A stretch of 12,488 nt of DNA from Pavlovales sp. CCMP2436 (lineage: Eukaryota > Haptophyta > Pavlovophyceae > Pavlovales). The first letter of the stretch is position 1; every line of letters starts with the position of its first letter. Below the pieces are notes generated by a model. The model saw only the letters and a program-made list of their open reading frames with translations. It did not search any database and had not been told where the DNA came from. The position numbers and the translations under genes are program-made. This document shows positions 2,277 to 11,893 of this stretch, one piece after another. Location: the NCBI GenBank assembly GCA_026770615.1, contig MU631338.1, positions 100,523 through 113,010 on the forward strand, written 5' to 3'.

Positions 2277-3523
2277 TCATTCCGTCCTGGGTCGATAAAT
2301 GAGCCGTCGACCCCGACTTGTGAGGTACATACGCGTGGTTATGCTGTCGTCGGTAATTGATGTCTGAGCACGTGGATAAGTGATGTGTGGCGTGTCACGA
2401 ACGTTTATGCCAGTGGGCCGCATATGGTCATGGTGAGTGAGTGTGGGCAGGATCGTTCTCAGGGTATTTTTGCGTTGCTTGTCCTTGAGTTCCAAAAACA
2501 GTGGTAGGTACTCTTCTGTGAATAGGACTTTTGCTATCACTCCCGTCACTATTGCTGGGATGACCTTTGCCGCTGGTAGGGAGGTTTCGATTCGGCTGAG
2601 TGTGTCCCGTACGTTGGCGCCTCCAGGTCGCAGTATGTCTTCTTCTGCCTCGCTTAATATAATATTCCCAATTGCCCGTCCGTGTCTCCGGTAGTAGTTC
2701 GCAGTGTATTTTCTTCTGCTTCTCTTAGTATTCTCAATTGTCCGTCCGTGTCTCCGGTAATGGGCGGAGTGCCGCTGGTGCGTGGCTGCACTAATCTGAG
2801 TGTGCTTCCTGCGCTTCTTGTCGCAAGGGCAGCTGCTGATTGCATAGGTTTGCCGCCTGAGGCTGGCCGCAGGAGGGTGAGGGCGAGTTCGCCCATAGGT
2901 GCCGCTTGCAGGAGGTGTGCGTAGTTTTCAAAGAAGTCCAACTTCGCCTCTCCCGTAGGTGCCTCGGCGAGGCCTCTGACCGCCCCTCTTGCCGTGGACA
3001 TGGTGTGTGCCTTGGCTTGGGCTGAGGCCCTATTCTGGACTATGCTCAGCGCGTGTGCTGCTAGAGGGTGGGTTGCCGATTCCGCTGGGGAGTTCAGTAG
3101 GCGCAGCATGGTAGTCACCTTCTCGCATGCGTTCTGCGCGCGCGGATCTACCACTCCTAGGCCACCGCGTTCAAGAGGGCTGCACGGGCGCTCTCTTGCT
3201 ACGTAGGTCCCTAGTGTGCATCGGAGGCGCGTTGCCTCCACTATAGCGGTGAGCGTCACTTTTAGGAAGACCTCAGAAAGGTCCGATGCTTCCATGGAAT
3301 ATAGCAGTGTCGGCGCGGCATCGTGGGTGGATAGTTTGGCTGTCCACAGTGTGTGGCATGCCCTCTTGTCAGAGGCGAGGTGTACTTTTCGCATGGCCTG
3401 CGCTAGCTCTATCGAGAGTTTACGTTCATGGGCCTGCCAGTCGCCGTTGGTGGGTAGGAGGTGCCCCAGGTATTCGAATACTTTATCGCTTGGCGTCTGC
3501 GGTACTTCCGAGCAGTTTCCGGT
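2277..3523 (-). pseudogene. LINE (non-LTR retrotransposon) polyprotein remnant, RT thumb and post-RT region
   Basis: The minus strand is open from 3523 (stop at 3524-3526 just upstream) to 2654, then shifts frame and continues to about 2277. Near its start it reads KVFEYLGHLLPTNGDW, the F-x-YLG motif typical of the segment after the catalytic core of LINE reverse transcriptases. It is followed by APTLLYSMEAS, where LINEs usually have a LLYG-like motif. A P-x-E-R-GGLGV-x-D motif, common in the post-RT region, comes about 90 residues later. The catalytic part with the YxDD box and any endonuclease are missing, so the copy is 5'-truncated. The frameshift near 2655 coincides with about 5 extra AT-rich bases in one copy of a 71-bp tandem duplication. 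After the shift the protein continues (SEAEEDILRPGGANVRDTLS). The clade cannot be assigned. Confidence 0.72.
2627..2764 (-). repeat. 71/66-bp tandem duplication inside the LINE remnant
   Basis: Units about 2627-2697 and 2698-2764 both run TCGCAGT-TCTTCTGC...CCGTCCGTGTCTCCGGTA. Both encode GDTDGQL...EAEE on the minus strand. The first unit has about 5 extra bases (TATAATAT region), which breaks the reading frame. Confidence 0.65.
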
Positions 3524-5993: not shown

Positions 5994-6376
5994 TTAGACG
6001 TTAGTTCACCATACGAAAGTAAACACAATTTTAACTTTAAATTTAATAACTAGCTGAGTAGTTAGACGGTTGGTAATATATTGTTTTAGAGGTCTGGCAT
6101 CAGGCGATGGAGTCCTTGAAATATACGGATCTAAAGCTTATTTAGGTACCATCTGCATCCGCCTGCTGTTTCTCAGTGATGTCGAGAACGCGAAGTCCGG
6201 TCTGCACCGCCGGCGGACCAGTCCCGGATGTGACCGGCACTTTTTTTTATTTCAATTAAATGATGACCATCACATTCACATGGTAGTGGCACGCACACGG
6301 CACATGTGCCTGGGAGCTGAGCCCATGCCACAGCAGACGCACGTGCTAGCTAGATAGGTTGTTGATTGTAGGGCAG
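5672..6376. other. Gene-free AT-richer stretch
   Basis: It contains a small hairpin GAGGGCT-CCG-AGCCCTC at 5735-5751, runs of T and the right arm of the 5067 inverted repeat. An open frame at 6070-6357 has no start context or motif that I can support. I see no convincing gene. Confidence 0.4.
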
Positions 6377-6398
6377 GGGTCGAAATCCGAATTAGTGG
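6373..6398 (+). repeat. Left TIR and flanking GCAG of the 5.1-kb candidate element
   Basis: GCAG at 6373-6376, then GGGTCGAAATCCGAATTAG to 6395 and TGG to 6398. It pairs exactly with 11482-11507. Confidence 0.6.
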
Positions 6399-6612
6399 GG
6401 GGAATTTTTTTAAAAAGTCCGGTAGATGTTTTTGAGGAACTCAAGAACCGAAGGTGGTGCCACGGAGTTAGTTGCAGATTCGTGAATGGGGCACTTCGGG
6501 AACCATGACTTTCTTTTCGCTTCCGAACGCTAAAATCGGAAATGTGGTTACAGTATACAGCACATTTTGAATAATGTCAATTGCTCCAGGCACACATATT
6601 TTTAAACCTACA

Positions 6613-6620
6613 TTTTAAAC
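6613..6620. repeat. Target-site duplication TTTTAAAC (left of hAT)
   Basis: Exact match to 7762-7769 at the other end of the hAT element. Another TTTTAAAC lies 13 bases further left at 6600-6607. Confidence 0.75.
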
Positions 6621-6942
6621 CAGTGCTCGGCGTTTACGGAGCCCCCCCCTTCATTCACTGGTTCATTCATCACCGGCAGAAATGGAGATTGGTTCATGAG
6701 AGCCTCGGCTTGCCAGTGCACTTTGGGTGGGTCCAAACTTCGTGATATACAACTAGAATAATGTCAAAAAATCTTCGCTGGCGCAGTCTCACTGTAGACG
6801 CGAGGCTATGCCTCGGTATACAGCTTGGTTCCAGCGCACCGGCCGCTCGGCAAACGGGCCTGAGGACGCCCCTGCGCGCGCGGACGGCGCGTACCGTGAC
6901 GACAACTGGCACAGCCACAATGCCGACCGGGGCGCACGCCTC

Positions 6943-6978
6943 GGCCGCGGTGGCCGCGGCGGCCGCGGCGGCCGCGGC
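6943..6978 (+). repeat. Four 9-bp GGCCGCGGY tandem units
   Basis: Located inside the hAT element. One frame encodes an RGG-type run (GRGGRGGRGGRGG), another poly-Ala. A G-rich run (G8-A-G9 region, 7022-7041) follows, and shortly after it a CGNCYKF segment (7046-7066) that could be a BED zinc-finger remnant. That last assignment is weak. Confidence 0.55.
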
Positions 6979-7309
6979 GGACAGGGCACACGCACCTATA
7001 TGGACGTGAGCGTTATGTGTGTGGGGGGGGGAGGGGGGGGGAACCTGTGGCAATTGCTACAAGTTCACCACCAACCTCACCTCTACCACCACCATCCCTG
7101 CTGCCAGGACTAACGTCTGACGTCGACCAAGTCAGTGAGTGGACAACACCTGTTGAACCATGCTGAGCCGCTATATATACAGTTAGCGGCAGTGTACAAG
7201 CGGGGGGCTGGGACGCTACAGTATGACGTAATGGTCTGGGCAGAACAGTAACAGACGTAACTGGAATTTCTGCCCCGCCCGGGGCCCGGCACGATGCTCG
7301 TCCCAACAG

Positions 7310-7525
7310 ATCGGGGCGCTGGCCGCGGAGAGCTTCCTGCGAGCATATGCTCTCGGCCGCGAACCAGGTGCTCAATGACGGCAACGCGTGCCTCTCTTCC
7401 AAGACCATGGAAATGCTCGTCATCCTCCGCACGTCAGCCGCAAGTTCATGGAGTACATGCGCAAGACGTACCCCAACCTTAGCCAGCAGCAGCTTAACGA
7501 GACGATTGTCGCCTCAGCTGACTAG
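7310..7525 (+). pseudogene. hAT transposase C-terminal dimerisation domain remnant
   Basis: LSAANQVLNDGNACLSSKTM and EMLVILR (7350-7430) follow the hAT C-terminal dimerisation pattern (FS.AG.....R..LS....E.L..L). A preceding stretch in another frame reads LAAES, matching the usual small-residue plus E segment before it. After about 7435 the frame shifts and reads KFMEYMRKTYPNLSQQQLNE to TAG 7523-7525. At least two frameshifts and the loss of the catalytic DDE core make it non-functional. In the family this domain mediates transposase multimerisation. Confidence 0.72.
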
Positions 7526-7761
7526 CGCTAGTGGCAGTGGGAGGAGAGCCGCGCCAGCTCTGTGTTCATCAGGCTAGTTCATCAGACTGGGCGCCGTTCA
7601 TCATTCATTCAGCGCCGGTGCTGTTCATGAACGTTCATAAATGTTCATTCGTGAAACATATCTATTTCTGTTGAATGAACTGCTTCATTCGTAATAAATC
7701 CTGCCTTAATCCTATGAACGGGTTCATTTTTTTCTTCGGGGCTAATGAACGCCGAGCACTA

Positions 7762-7769
7762 TTTTAAAC
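7762..7769. repeat. Shared TTTTAAAC between hAT and foldback element
   Basis: It serves as the right target-site duplication of the hAT element. It also matches 8718-8725 at the far end of the foldback element, so two insertions share one target word. Confidence 0.7.
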
Positions 7770-7980
7770 GGAAGACGTGTGCAAAAGCCTTTAGGAAATT
7801 TCTATCCGTTCCATTCGATCGTTACGTTCTCATCCGTTCACTAGAACGGATGTAAGTTCCGTTCTGTCCGTTCTCGTCCGTTCATCTTTGCGAACACAAT
7901 GAACGCATCTCTGAGAACGCAATAAATGTATTCTTTACGTTCTCATCCGTTCTCATCCGTTCAATAGAACGAATGTGTGT

Positions 7981-8166
7981 TCCGTTCTCGTCCGTTCTCG
8001 TCCGTTCTCGTCCGTTCATCTTTGCGAACGCAATGAACGCATCCATGGGAACGCAATAAACGTATTAAACGCAATGAACGCACCCTTAAAAGTTTAATGA
8101 ACGCAATGAACGGATGGAGAACAGGCGAGAACGGATGAGAACGGACGAGAACGGATGAGAACGGAT
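7981..8166. repeat. 10-bp TCCGTTCTCG array and its inverted counterpart
   Basis: TCCGTTCTCG repeats from 7981, three exact units plus TCCGTTC. GAGAACGGAY units run from 8127 to 8166 in inverted orientation, giving arms of about 40 bp around a loop of about 110 bp. Related, less regular units run from 7828 to 7965. Confidence 0.75.
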
Positions 8167-8167
8167 A

Positions 8168-8187
8168 TGCTCTATTTTGATAGAGCA
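8168..8187. repeat. Hairpin TGCTCTAT-TTTG-ATAGAGCA
   Basis: A perfect 8-bp stem with a 4-base loop, immediately after the inverted 10-bp array. Confidence 0.6.
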
Positions 8188-8266
8188 GGATAACCATGGA
8201 TTGTTCCTTTTTGATCGATGCTTAAGACCGTGAAGCTCTTCTTCGATCAAGTGCAGCATAAGTTAA

Positions 8267-8310
8267 AACGACGTAGGATCGTTGTGTAAACGACGTAGGT
8301 TCGTTGTGTA
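8267..8310 (+). repeat. Two adjacent 22-bp units AACGACGTAGGWTCGTTGTG(TA)
   Basis: Units 8267-8288 and 8289-8310 differ at one base (GGATCG versus GGTTCG). Confidence 0.75.
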
Positions 8311-8761
8311 ACCCGCTGCACCTGGCCGGTGGGGCTCTTGCCTGCGGCGCAATAATAATTTTTTTCGTAATCATTATGCAGAACTGCCTATAATTCAGAA
8401 GTGCGGAGCATTCAGAAATGTAAATTTATCTAGGGATTGACGTACTTGATGTACCACACGTTCATTGCGTTCGTTTCTGAGAACGCTATAAACGTATTAA
8501 ACTCAATGAACGCAACCTTAACAAGTTTAATGAATGCAATGAATGGATGGTAAATTATTTTGAAGAATCCGTTCTCGTCCGTTCGCTTGAAAATCAGACA
8601 TCGAAAAACGCTCTGAAATCCGTTGCATCCGTTCCCATCCGCGGATACAACAGATACAAAAACGGGTTTCCTAAAGGCTTCTGCGCACTTTCCTTAAGGC
8701 TTTTGCGCGATTATCCGTTTTAAACCGCTCTCGATCAGGGGGACGCTGTGCCGTTTAAATA

Positions 8762-10646
8762 GCGTTGCAAGGGCTCCCAAGCTGGTCCCAGTTTTACCTG
8801 GGAGACCGCGAACGGGATCGATCGGACAAGCCGCTGGCCTTCGGCCTCTGTGTCCGGACACGCCGTGCGGCTGGGCGAGAGCGTTCCCCAAGCAGTGCCC
8901 GATTGAATACTCCGAGGACGAGCGCATGCGCTGGCACGCGTGGGAGCCGCGTCTGAGGGGCATGAACAAGGACGGTGTCCTGTTTACGTCGGATGAGCTC
9001 GTGCCGCGCGACGGCGCCCGCGCGCAATTCATGAGCAAGTTACGCGCAGATGTCGGGTCTTACCTGCCACACATCTCCGATGCAGCTCATGCAACACGCG
9101 AATCGGCTGTTTGAGGAGCGCAAGGACCAGGTGACCGCCACGCGGCACAGCGACTACGCCTCGCAGGTGCCTATCGTGCGCGCGAGCACCACCACGTGCG
9201 CGAGTAAGGAGTCGATCAACAACTGCGTGAGCGTGATTGGCTTCAAGCCGCGCACCGTCGAGGTGCCACTTCGCCGCCAAGCACACGCCGCTGCCGAGGG
9301 CAAGCCGAGCATTCGCACCGCCCGTCGGCAGACCGTCTTCATCGCGTTCGGCAGGTTTGCCAACACGTACAAGCCCGACGTGCGCTTCTTCAACGTGCAG
9401 GCTGCCGACCTCGACTCGATCCTCAAGACCGGCGTGTCCATCCACAGTGAGTGGTTCTACAAGGGCAAGCGGCTACCGGGCGGCAAGCTACGCGCAGAGC
9501 TGCCGGCCGCCATCGCCGACTACGAGGGCCACAGCCGTTCTTCCCCGAGATGGAGCGTGTGATGTAGTAGGTGACGGACGAGGCTCCTTCACAGTTCGAC
9601 AATAGGACGCACTACCACCAGGTAACCTCACCCCATCACTCCCCCCACGCCCATCCCCACACACTTGCACACCTCTCTGACCTATGAAATCACCCCTATT
9701 TTATGAATACAAACCGCCGCGTGGAGGGCACAGTCACACTGGAAAATCATCCGCGCTGCAAGCTGGTCACGATGCACGGCAAGAGCGTGTGCAACAGTGC
9801 GAGCAACGCGCTCAAAAGTGCGCTCGTGGAGGCGGGCGCCCAGGGCCTGCTCGTCGAGCCAGGCGCGCGCGGCGCCCTGCTCTACCTCGTTGAGGCCAAG
9901 CAGACACCGTCCAAGGCTAAGATCGACGGCGGCAGCTATTGGCAGGCGGACGGTATCCTCTACTGCTACTACGACCCGTCGCTCTTCACCGCTTCGGCCG
10001 TCCACGACGCTGTGCCGTTCGTTGGTTCGAGCAAGGTGCACATGAGCTGTGGCCTGTGCATGGACGACGAGCAGGCGACGCGCAGCGGGCCGCTCACGCA
10101 CCTCGACGTCTTCTGCCCGTGCGCCCCGTGCTGCCGCCTTGACTTTGCCATCTGCGAGATGACGGCTGTGTTCGGAAGGTGCAGGTCTCGAACGTGAAGC
10201 GCGCGTCCTCGACCGGACTGCCGTCGCAGACGGAGAGCCTGCAGGAGTTCGCCGCCTGGCTCGACAAGGACAGGCTCGCCGCATTCAGGGTGGAGTTGGA
10301 CGAGCACACCGTCGAGGGCAGCGTCTGGCTCGCTCTGCTCGACAGCAAATCTTTCGCCCTGGAGCAGGACAAGCATCACGCCGGGCAGCACTTTGAGAGG
10401 GGCTGGAGCGTTGTGCGTGGCCACTGGTTCTCCCTTGCGCGCACCGAGCGTGCGGGCGGCATGCAGGTCTACAAGGCGCTCGAGGAGTAGACGCTGTTCA
10501 ACGTGCAGTCGATGTTGAAGATCAAGAACCTCAAATTCCTCCAAGGCCTGCCGAAGCAAACGCGCCTGAGCACGGCCGCCTGGTACAAGAACAACGAGAT
10601 TTCATTCCATCGCAAGACGTACCAGCTCCTGGTAGACAGCCTCTAG
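8762..10646 (+). pseudogene. Long broken gene of unknown family with a cysteine cluster
   Basis: Coding segments on one strand join across lesions. The first, SWSQFYLGDRERDRSDKPLA to about 8882, shifts frame into FPKQCPIEYSEDERMRWHAW. It shifts again near 9078 into QLMQHANRLFEERKDQ and runs to about 9536, then shifts to FFPEMERVM and hits TAG TAG (9565-9570). A 105-bp intron at 9622-9726 would join the next segment (ENHPRCKLVTMHGKSVCNS onward). Near 10040-10160 it holds CGLC, then CPCAPCC and a further Cys, spaced like a zinc-binding module. Another shift near 10175 and an in-frame TAG at 10488-10490 precede the end (KNNEISFHRKTYQLLVDSL, TAG 10644-10646). FNVQ followed by W-Y-K occurs twice (about 9393 and 10500). 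The family is unknown to me; it could be the transposase or cargo of the surrounding 5.1-kb element. The 5' side abuts the foldback element, so the start is probably lost. Confidence 0.55.
9622..9726 (+). other. Tentative intron (105 bp) in the broken gene
   Basis: Donor CACCAG|GTAACC and acceptor GTGGAG|GGC keep phase 0 between the segments on either side. The interior is pyrimidine-rich with CTCTGAC as a possible branch site and contains a TGA (9685-9687) in the frame of the following exon. Alternatively this is simply decayed sequence. Confidence 0.35.
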
Positions 10647-10716
10647 TGCACAGATTAGCGGCCCGCGACAAGCGCTGATGCCCAACTGACCGCTCTGAGT
10701 CTGCCGCTCTTATTAT

Positions 10717-10771
10717 AAAATATGTTAATTATTAGATTACTTAAGTAAGCATAATTAATTACTACATATTT
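10717..10771. repeat. AT-rich quasi-palindrome centred on ACTTAAGT
   Basis: AAATATGTTAATTATTA on the left mirrors TAATTAATTACTACATATTT on the right around ACTTAAGT. It lies 70-125 bases after the stop of the broken gene and directly before the 665-bp element. It could be a 3' processing region or a transposon footprint. Confidence 0.5.
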
Positions 10772-10778
10772 CTGAATG

Positions 10779-11443
10779 CGGCTAGACCCCTGACTCGGGC
10801 CTGGGCCTATTTAACCAGCTTTTTGGCCTATTTAATAGGCTACATTCGGCACGCTGTAGCCGGCGCACCGCGCGTCGGACACCCAGGGTCACCGCACATT
10901 GCCGTGGACGCCACGAGCAGGCACGACATGGGAATAGCCAGGATTCAATCAGATTGACGATGCGACTTCCCGGTGGCATATTATGACCTGGTGAATTAGA
11001 AGAAAAATTACAAAAATTTCAGCATGGCAGACGCTGACCCTACGTCGCTGCCGCTCGAGCCTGAGCCGCTCGCCGAGAGGCCGAAGCGCTTGCCATCAAA
11101 GACTCGACGAACGGTATCACCTGCACCTCGGCCACGCTGGAGGCTATATGCGAGGGTGTCGCTCGCTCCCCACGCCGCCTAGAGCGCCCACTGAGTCTTG
11201 CCTATTGGTTCCTCCTGAAATTTGCCTATTCAATAGGAATGTTATTTTAGTCAAAATCTGCATTTAATTAGTAATGTTAATTTAGTTATTGAGGAGGATA
11301 TGATGGGTCGAGGCTTTTAATTTGCCTCTTGAGACTCTTCCCTCCAAGCCTCAGCTCTGAGAACAAACTAGAGACAAACGGCGACAGCGTGTACCTTGTC
11401 AATTGAATATGTTTGAATAGGATCAGTCTCAGGGGTCTAGCCG
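10779..11443. mobile_element. 665-bp TIR element with AATG duplication
   Basis: The left end CGGCTAGACCCCTGA (10779-10793) is exactly inverted at 11429-11443. AATG lies directly outside both ends (10775-10778 and 11444-11447), consistent with a 4-bp target-site duplication. Inside are GCCTATT-type palindromes (GGCCTATTTAATAGGC near 10826-10841; GCCTATTCAATAGG near 11224-11237) and a short coding remnant. No transposase is present, so it is non-autonomous. The superfamily is unclear. Confidence 0.6.
11024..11243 (+). pseudogene. N-terminal coding remnant inside the 665-bp element
   Basis: An ATG at 11024 opens MADADPTSLPLEPEPLAE. A different frame then reads EAEALAIKDSTNGITCTSAT and LEAICEGVARSPRRLE, so a frameshift or a short splice lies near 11075-11085. 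The ATG follows an A-rich leader (AGAAGAAAAATTACAAAAATTTCAGC). It may be the start of the transposase of the parent element, kept in a deletion derivative. No domain recognised. Confidence 0.4.
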
Positions 11444-11481
11444 AATGTGGGCGCTTTCCCCCTCTCCAGTGCGGAATCGCG

Positions 11482-11507
11482 CCACTAATTCGGATTTCGA
11501 CCCGCAG
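11482..11507 (-). repeat. Right TIR and flanking GCAG of the 5.1-kb candidate element
   Basis: CCACTAATTCGGATTTCGAC at 11482-11501, then CC and GCAG 11504-11507. It is the inverted partner of 6377-6398 with the same directly repeated GCAG outside. Confidence 0.6.
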
Positions 11508-11639
11508 GCCTCAACCCGGCCGTGTTCTCCCCCGGCTTTATGCGTACGTCAGAATGCCAAAATCACGTCCGCCGCTCTCACGCTGTGCGCGGCGTGGGGC
11601 GCGCGTGTAGGCCTGCTGATCGGCGGGAAGCAGGCTTAA
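11504..11639 (+). pseudogene. Coding remnant adjoining the right end of the 5.1-kb element
   Basis: From the GCAG next to the right TIR, one frame reads AGLNPAVFSPGFMRTS. The adjacent frame then reads NAKITSAALTLCAAWGARVG then LLIGGKQA and stops at TAA 11637-11639. A one-base shift near 11552 joins them. It may be the host gene interrupted by the insertion, but no matching upstream part is visible left of 6373. Family unknown. Confidence 0.38.
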
Positions 11640-11893
11640 TGGGCGTGCGAGGGCGCTCGCCGAGCTGCACCCCCTTCCGCCTCGCCAGGTGCACGATGCA
11701 TGCACGATGCGCACGTCGGAACGCTGTTCTCAGCACACACGGGTTGCAGCGTGTAGAAGCACATCCACCGGCAAAAAATGTTGCACTCGCGGCCACTGAA
11801 TCGGCACGTTCGTCGGCCCTGGGTCATACCGGAATCAGCGCGTCCGCGCTGGGCGCGTTTCCGTGAAGCATGCCGCCTATCTGTGCACATGAG
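11640..11893. other. Gene-free stretch
   Basis: GC-rich sequence with open frames on both strands of Arg/Cys/Ala-rich composition and no motif that I can support. A small direct and palindromic repeat (GCACGATGCATGCACGATGC) lies at about 11692-11711. Confidence 0.35.

Follow-up and report, generated by a model that had tools for sequence, protein, structure and literature searches.

As described in the passages cited here, several superfamilies of DNA transposons make short target duplications. Sola2 elements have terminal inverted repeats and 4-bp duplications (PMC3627910), which in one set are AT-rich and follow the pattern AWWT (PMC3627910), and Sola1 elements average 5445 bp in bivalves (PMC10294476). 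Kolobok elements also duplicate 4 bp and have 5'-RR and YY-3' ends (PMC9587614), while Chapaev elements duplicate 3-4 bp and have invariant CAC...GTG ends (PMC4079192). A C/DxxH motif between the second aspartate and the last acidic residue is reported for hAT, P, MuDR, Kolobok and Dada (PMC9587614), and hAT forms with 7-bp duplications have been named (PMC4455052). Here we describe an element at positions 6377-11503 of a 12,488-nucleotide stretch of Pavlovales sp. CCMP2436 DNA (C32:100523-113010; hereafter the window). It is very probably a defunct member of a class II transposon family that has terminal inverted repeats (TIRs) of 22 bp, 4-bp target duplications, a DDD transposase encoded by full-length relatives, and short copies that ride along.

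Ends, target duplications and empty sites

The sequence GGGTCGAAATCCGAATTAGTGG is present, exact and in opposite orientations, at the two ends of the element, and GCAG lies directly outside both (Table 1). No other match with up to 3 mismatches was observed in the window, and the 22-mer was matched in 0/200 shuffled windows. When the outer flanks were joined through a single GCAG, they matched three other places without a break at the junction (92-95% identity), and more weakly a fourth at C324 (78% identity, not aligned by eye). Since the flanks are continuous at these empty sites, 6377-11503 represents one insertion event, its target being a copy of another repeat. This host sequence (flanks 6217-6376 and 11504-11667) is multicopy, occurring also at C97, C527 and C26 and more weakly at C324.

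The window's own genome (119,351,458 bases in 703 contigs) was searched for the 22-mer with up to 3 mismatches. There were 786 forward and 768 reverse matches, 1554 in all, with places given for about the first hundred; the reversed 22-mer gave 0 and 0 under the same limit. Just inside the 22 bp stands one of two sequences, CGCGATTCCGCACTGG (A end) or CCAGTCCGGGGGGAAA (B end). With this inner sequence included (38 bases, up to 3 mismatches) 345 + 306 A ends and 237 + 259 B ends were found, and 0 matches to the control patterns.

Loci L001-L064, which are the first listed end loci plus gene neighbourhoods and not a random sample, contain 24 different facing end pairs 100-5500 bp apart. An exact 4-bp duplication flanks 17/24 pairs and a longer one 0/24; sequences seen include GCAG, GAAG, CGAG and GACC. 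17 pairs combine one A with one B end, two are B-B, and five have an end that the script could not type. Both B-B pairs are among the seven without an exact duplication. Shared TIRs in many copies, a duplication of constant length and three clean empty sites place the family among the TIR DNA transposons. An introner, a transposon acting as an intron, was considered and dropped, there being no splice-site pattern in the duplications of the 24 pairs.

16/24 pairs are only 374-494 bp long and lack the gene. These are the miniature inverted-repeat transposable elements of the family, set apart from the window copy by its larger size and gene remains. Pairwise identity among 15 short copies is 78.5-97.4% (mean 85.8%, 105 pairs, gaps left out), indicating that the family is not very young. 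With short copies so common and the interval mixed with other repeats, the two 22-mers might be the ends of separate short elements with ordinary DNA between them. We give this almost no credence. The left end is of B type and the right end of A type, as expected of one element, the flanks match, and at the three empty sites the outer flanks meet without gap or surplus; two unrelated ends were rejected on the evidence of these sites. A preliminary description of the window had taken the repeats and GCAG for the ends of one transposon, and had proposed a search for copies that share the ends but differ in the 4 bp outside them, as well as for an empty site reading GCAG once. All of these were found, the last at three paralogous places. 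The opposite case it envisaged, a 22-mer always in solitary short repeats, is contradicted by the paired ends and by the gene-bearing copies described below.

Gene-bearing copies and the predicted transposase

A genome search with window positions 8740-10760 returned at least 45 matching rows, a lower bound as 40 of 159 candidates were scored. 33 rows at 27 places, including the window, cover gene sequence, and the places other than the window are 78-93% identical to it. The remaining 12 weak rows match 8768-8827 only, which is a different scattered repeat. The gene had been placed at 8762-10646. Gene sequence is indeed present there, but because of the scattered repeat the element's part starts at about 8827, and it is broken rather than one open frame.

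The gene is linked to the ends. An A end lies just past its 3' end, in the correct orientation, in 20/30 fetched loci (17 distinct copies). Among the others, the DNA fetched for seven contains no end at all, L047 and L059 have only a separate 867-bp element, and L045 has two B ends. Five copies of 4.0-5.5 kb were traced to both ends, 3/5 with an exact 4-bp duplication: the window copy (5127 bp, GCAG/GCAG), C541 (4042 bp, TAAT/TAAT), C193 (5548 bp, TTTT/TTTT), C527 (4615 bp, AATT/ATTT) and C87 (4413 bp, flanks that do not match). The B end lies about 200 bp from the gene in C87 and about 290 bp in C541. Copies with the same gene between the ends, which the preliminary description had suggested looking for, thus exist at 4-5.5 kb; the intact version it also asked for was not demonstrated in any gene-bearing copy examined.

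In the C527 copy a single long gene runs in the sense direction, interrupted by stops and by a putative intron of 91 bp. Window positions 8827-10760 are 87% identical to it and 86-90% identical to the ten next longest matches, and the window's gene remnant begins at the counterpart of C527 position 2596. Of 882 candidates for similarity to C527, 40 were scored; in these, at eleven further places that carry the gene, similarity begins no earlier than about position 355-410, suggesting that C527 may be either a recombinant carrying the B end of a short copy or a representative of the lineage that gave the short copies. Partial B-end matches to C527 occur at C87, C541 and C356. Seven gene-less copies were also compared with C527: six match at both ends and L025 at the B end only, and two match a further ~38 bp near position 467-504.

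In public protein sets (sources jgi, ena and lgn) 31 different relatives were found; P0020 is also in mmetsp, a collection of transcriptomes from marine eukaryotes. Over 96% of a 446-residue query, P0001 shows 80% identity. P0019 and P0022 have 1080 and 1374 residues, suggesting a protein of about 1000-1300 residues. Pfam gave no match for four window peptides (E up to 1), three frames (E up to 10), five other window frames or 19 relatives (E up to 1), and a single chance-level match (E 0.036) in 1/23 relatives. Sequence searches of the PDB gave best E values of 0.19, none and 0.45, both hits being ribosomal proteins, and no transposase or integrase chain. No relatives were found in viral contigs using single-protein patterns of P0001 and P0019. 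The protein may resemble some uncharacterised proteins of animals in which TDG...QYK and HAKG motifs occur.

Three aspartates are constant in all occupied rows of an alignment of 23 sequences (A6): D320 in a SDYAxQ-like stretch (16/16), D454 in DGxxxQF or DTCAAQF (22/22) and D495 in GKxxCD (22/22). In an earlier alignment of 19 sequences (A3), seven fragmentary members of which are omitted from A6, the same aspartates are found in 10/10, 13/14 and 13/13 rows, the exception being the truncated protein P0002. The first catalytic aspartate was also sought at CVSVIDF of the C527 copy; this was rejected because relatives have G at that place, and SDYAxQ is conserved. A cysteine-rich stretch precedes the first aspartate. 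C/DxxH is present between the second and third aspartates in 10/22 relatives, nine times as DNYH or DNFH ten residues after the second aspartate, and absent in 12/22, including P0001. An RNase H-like core and a BAH-like C-terminal domain are predicted. Among the matches listed for both terms, no title or abstract opening describes a fusion of a BAH domain with a transposase.

Three conserved acidic residues are what is seen in DDD/E transposases, and from alignment and predicted fold the protein is best read as a DDD cut-and-paste transposase. Alternatively, it could be a passenger, a captured gene, with the real transposase of these ends encoded by another, unseen gene. The many end pairs too short for a gene would fit, as would the fact that no copy was shown to combine the two ends with a gene intact throughout. 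We regard this as improbable. No open frame of the C527 copy is longer than that of the gene itself, 1030 residues, and antisense frames, which reach 513 residues at most, overlap the gene; the A end follows the gene in two thirds of the fetched loci, and the three aspartates lie on the predicted RNase H-like core.

With the protein read as a transposase, full-length relatives of about 4-4.6 kb would each contain one gene, its 3' end facing the A end and probably interrupted by the 91-bp intron. The enzyme would bind the A and B ends, cut the element out and insert it where the two target strands are cut 4 bp apart; the catalytic residues would be the three aspartates on the predicted RNase H-like fold. 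The BAH-like domain may read chromatin, a guess from its predicted fold. The structure of the copies documents the outcome of such transposition, while the chemistry, end binding, splicing and chromatin reading are inferences. Short copies keep little besides the ends. Having no room for the gene, they must move in trans, presumably by the same enzyme.

Decay of the window copy and hairpins in B ends

The window copy is no more than a fossil: it lacks the first part of the gene, its frames are broken, the third aspartate has become asparagine, the intron acceptor reads AA and two transposons lie inside it (Table 1). After landing in another repeat it would have lost the gene front and one hairpin arm, taken up the two transposons and undergone the aspartate to asparagine change. 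At the third position C527 also has asparagine, and L033 and L034 have aspartate. Relative P0001 reads uninterrupted across the inferred intron point.

Table 1. Features of the window copy, in window positions
Feature	Position	Strand	Remarks
Target site duplication GCAG, left	6373..6376	.	Occurs once at three paralogous empty sites
22-bp TIR, B end	6377..6398	+	End type read from sequence just inside
B-end subterminal region	6399..6552	+	With the repeat, matches C527 1-124 (80%) and 199-261 (94%); one hairpin arm absent
Nested hAT-like element and 8-bp duplication	6613..7769	.	Foreign to host transposon
Repetitive foreign segment	7770..8826	.	Long inverted repeats and CGTTCTCATC-type tandem repeats; outside gene
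Remnant of putative transposase gene	8827..10646	+	5' part missing; stops and frameshifts
First conserved aspartate codon, SDYASQ	9152..9154	+	Kept; translation and alignment
Second conserved aspartate codon, TDEAPSQF	9577..9579	+	Kept; translation and alignment
Inferred 91-bp intron	9622..9712	+	Starts GT; AA where C527 has AG acceptor
Third conserved residue, codon AAC (asparagine)	9793..9795	+	Aspartate in 22/22 occupied rows of A6
C-terminal part	10179..10646	+	Same region of relatives predicted BAH-like domain
Nested element and 4-bp duplication	10775..11447	.	Foreign to host transposon; empty site seen in C527
A-end subterminal region	11448..11481	-	93% match to C527 over 11444-11503
22-bp TIR, A end	11482..11503	-	Exact match; A-type inner sequence
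Target site duplication GCAG, right	11504..11507	.	Occurs once at three paralogous empty sites

The first nested element (6621-7761, 1141 bp) has C/TAGTGCTCGGCGTT ends and the 8-bp duplication TTTTAAAC at 6613-6620 and 7762-7769; by these hallmarks it is hAT-like. Beside it, inverted arms at 7763-7798 and 8689-8724 enclose the CGTTCTCATC-type tandem repeats and inverted copies thereof, and probably represent another element. The second nested element (10779-11443, 665 bp) has CGGCTAGACCCCTGA ends and the duplication AATG at 10775-10778 and 11444-11447. It apparently belongs to a second family with 4-bp duplications.

A hairpin stem of at least 24 bp is present in 21/32 B ends, mostly starting 70-139 bp from the end, and absent from 11/32. 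The 21 include both halves of a single joint at which B ends meet head to head (L026:1501-1754), which forms an 82-bp stem with 5 mismatches. Near-perfect hairpins of up to 39 bp are seen, for example at L022:1585-1672. In 15 rows with a good stem, changes on both sides occur in 13/39 pairs (48 cells against 17.7 in shuffles), a covariation that is overstated because the rows were selected for their stems. Pair types were not clearly more numerous than in shuffles, of which 107/500 reached the observed number. Arm-to-arm copying during replication would yield the same pattern as selection. The B end of the window has one hairpin arm only, and the fold of 6440-6560 is no better than shuffles.

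Elsewhere in the window, a direct repeat at 351-455 and 596-700 (105 bp, 94% identical, 245 bp start to start) lies in a gene-like stretch, and a 246-residue open frame at 2654-3394 on the reverse strand has no Pfam match. This frame may resemble a reverse transcriptase tail.

Relation to named superfamilies

Exact duplications were pooled for comparison (n=20), 17 from the end pairs plus GCAG, TAAT and TTTT of the gene-bearing copies. hAT elements duplicate 8 bp, and no 8-bp duplication was found in the end pairs or gene-bearing copies. The left end has CAGGGGTCG, which had been read as a sign of hAT; as the right end lacks it, this reading was rejected. Mos1/mariner, Hermes (hAT) and retroviral integrase differ in their ends and duplication and had no sequence match in the PDB searches. 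Chapaev (CMC) resembles the family in its 3-4-bp duplication and differs in its ends, CAC...GTG in the passages cited as against GGG...CCC in the window. Kolobok, as described there, is similar in its 4-bp duplications, in RR/YY ends (GG...CC here) and in the DxxH that follows the second aspartate in 10/22 relatives. It differs in duplicating TTAA, as does piggyBac, a sequence seen in 0/20 exact duplications here, and C/DxxH is absent in 12/22 relatives.

Sola is similar by description, with 4-bp target duplications, TIRs and comparable size. The family may have diverged within an already named superfamily that makes 4-bp duplications, Sola being the likeliest, and the 4-bp duplication shared with Sola2 elements favors this (PMC3627910). 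However, the Sola2 duplications described there are AT-rich, in contrast to GCAG, GAAG, CGAG, GACC and others here, and only 3/20 fit the AWWT told for one Sola2 set (PMC3627910). We consider a Sola assignment a serious possibility, short of an even chance. It would alter the label, not the mechanism. We file the family as a new variant among DDD/E DNA transposons with no superfamily assigned, set beside Sola by descriptions and not by protein sequences. That it may be undescribed rests on the lack of a match in Pfam and in listings of open-licence papers, Repbase not being among the sources.

A bolder and more doubtful proposal is that these proteins form an unnamed eukaryotic superfamily of DDD transposases that probably occurs widely in marine protists. 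It would be marked by the signature SDYAxQ...DGxxxQF...GKxxCD, would make 4-bp duplications with no evident sequence preference, and would carry a BAH-like domain of its own that guides insertion through the reading of histones. The present work allows 1554 end sequences of this genome to be labelled as a repeat, and adds a transposase-like family absent from Pfam, described with its ends, duplication, empty sites, short derivatives and aspartate triad. If the BAH-like domain is real, the DNA transposase would bring a histone reader along, in a logic comparable to that of retrotransposon integrases with chromodomains, and chromatin-guided insertion of DNA transposons would become testable.

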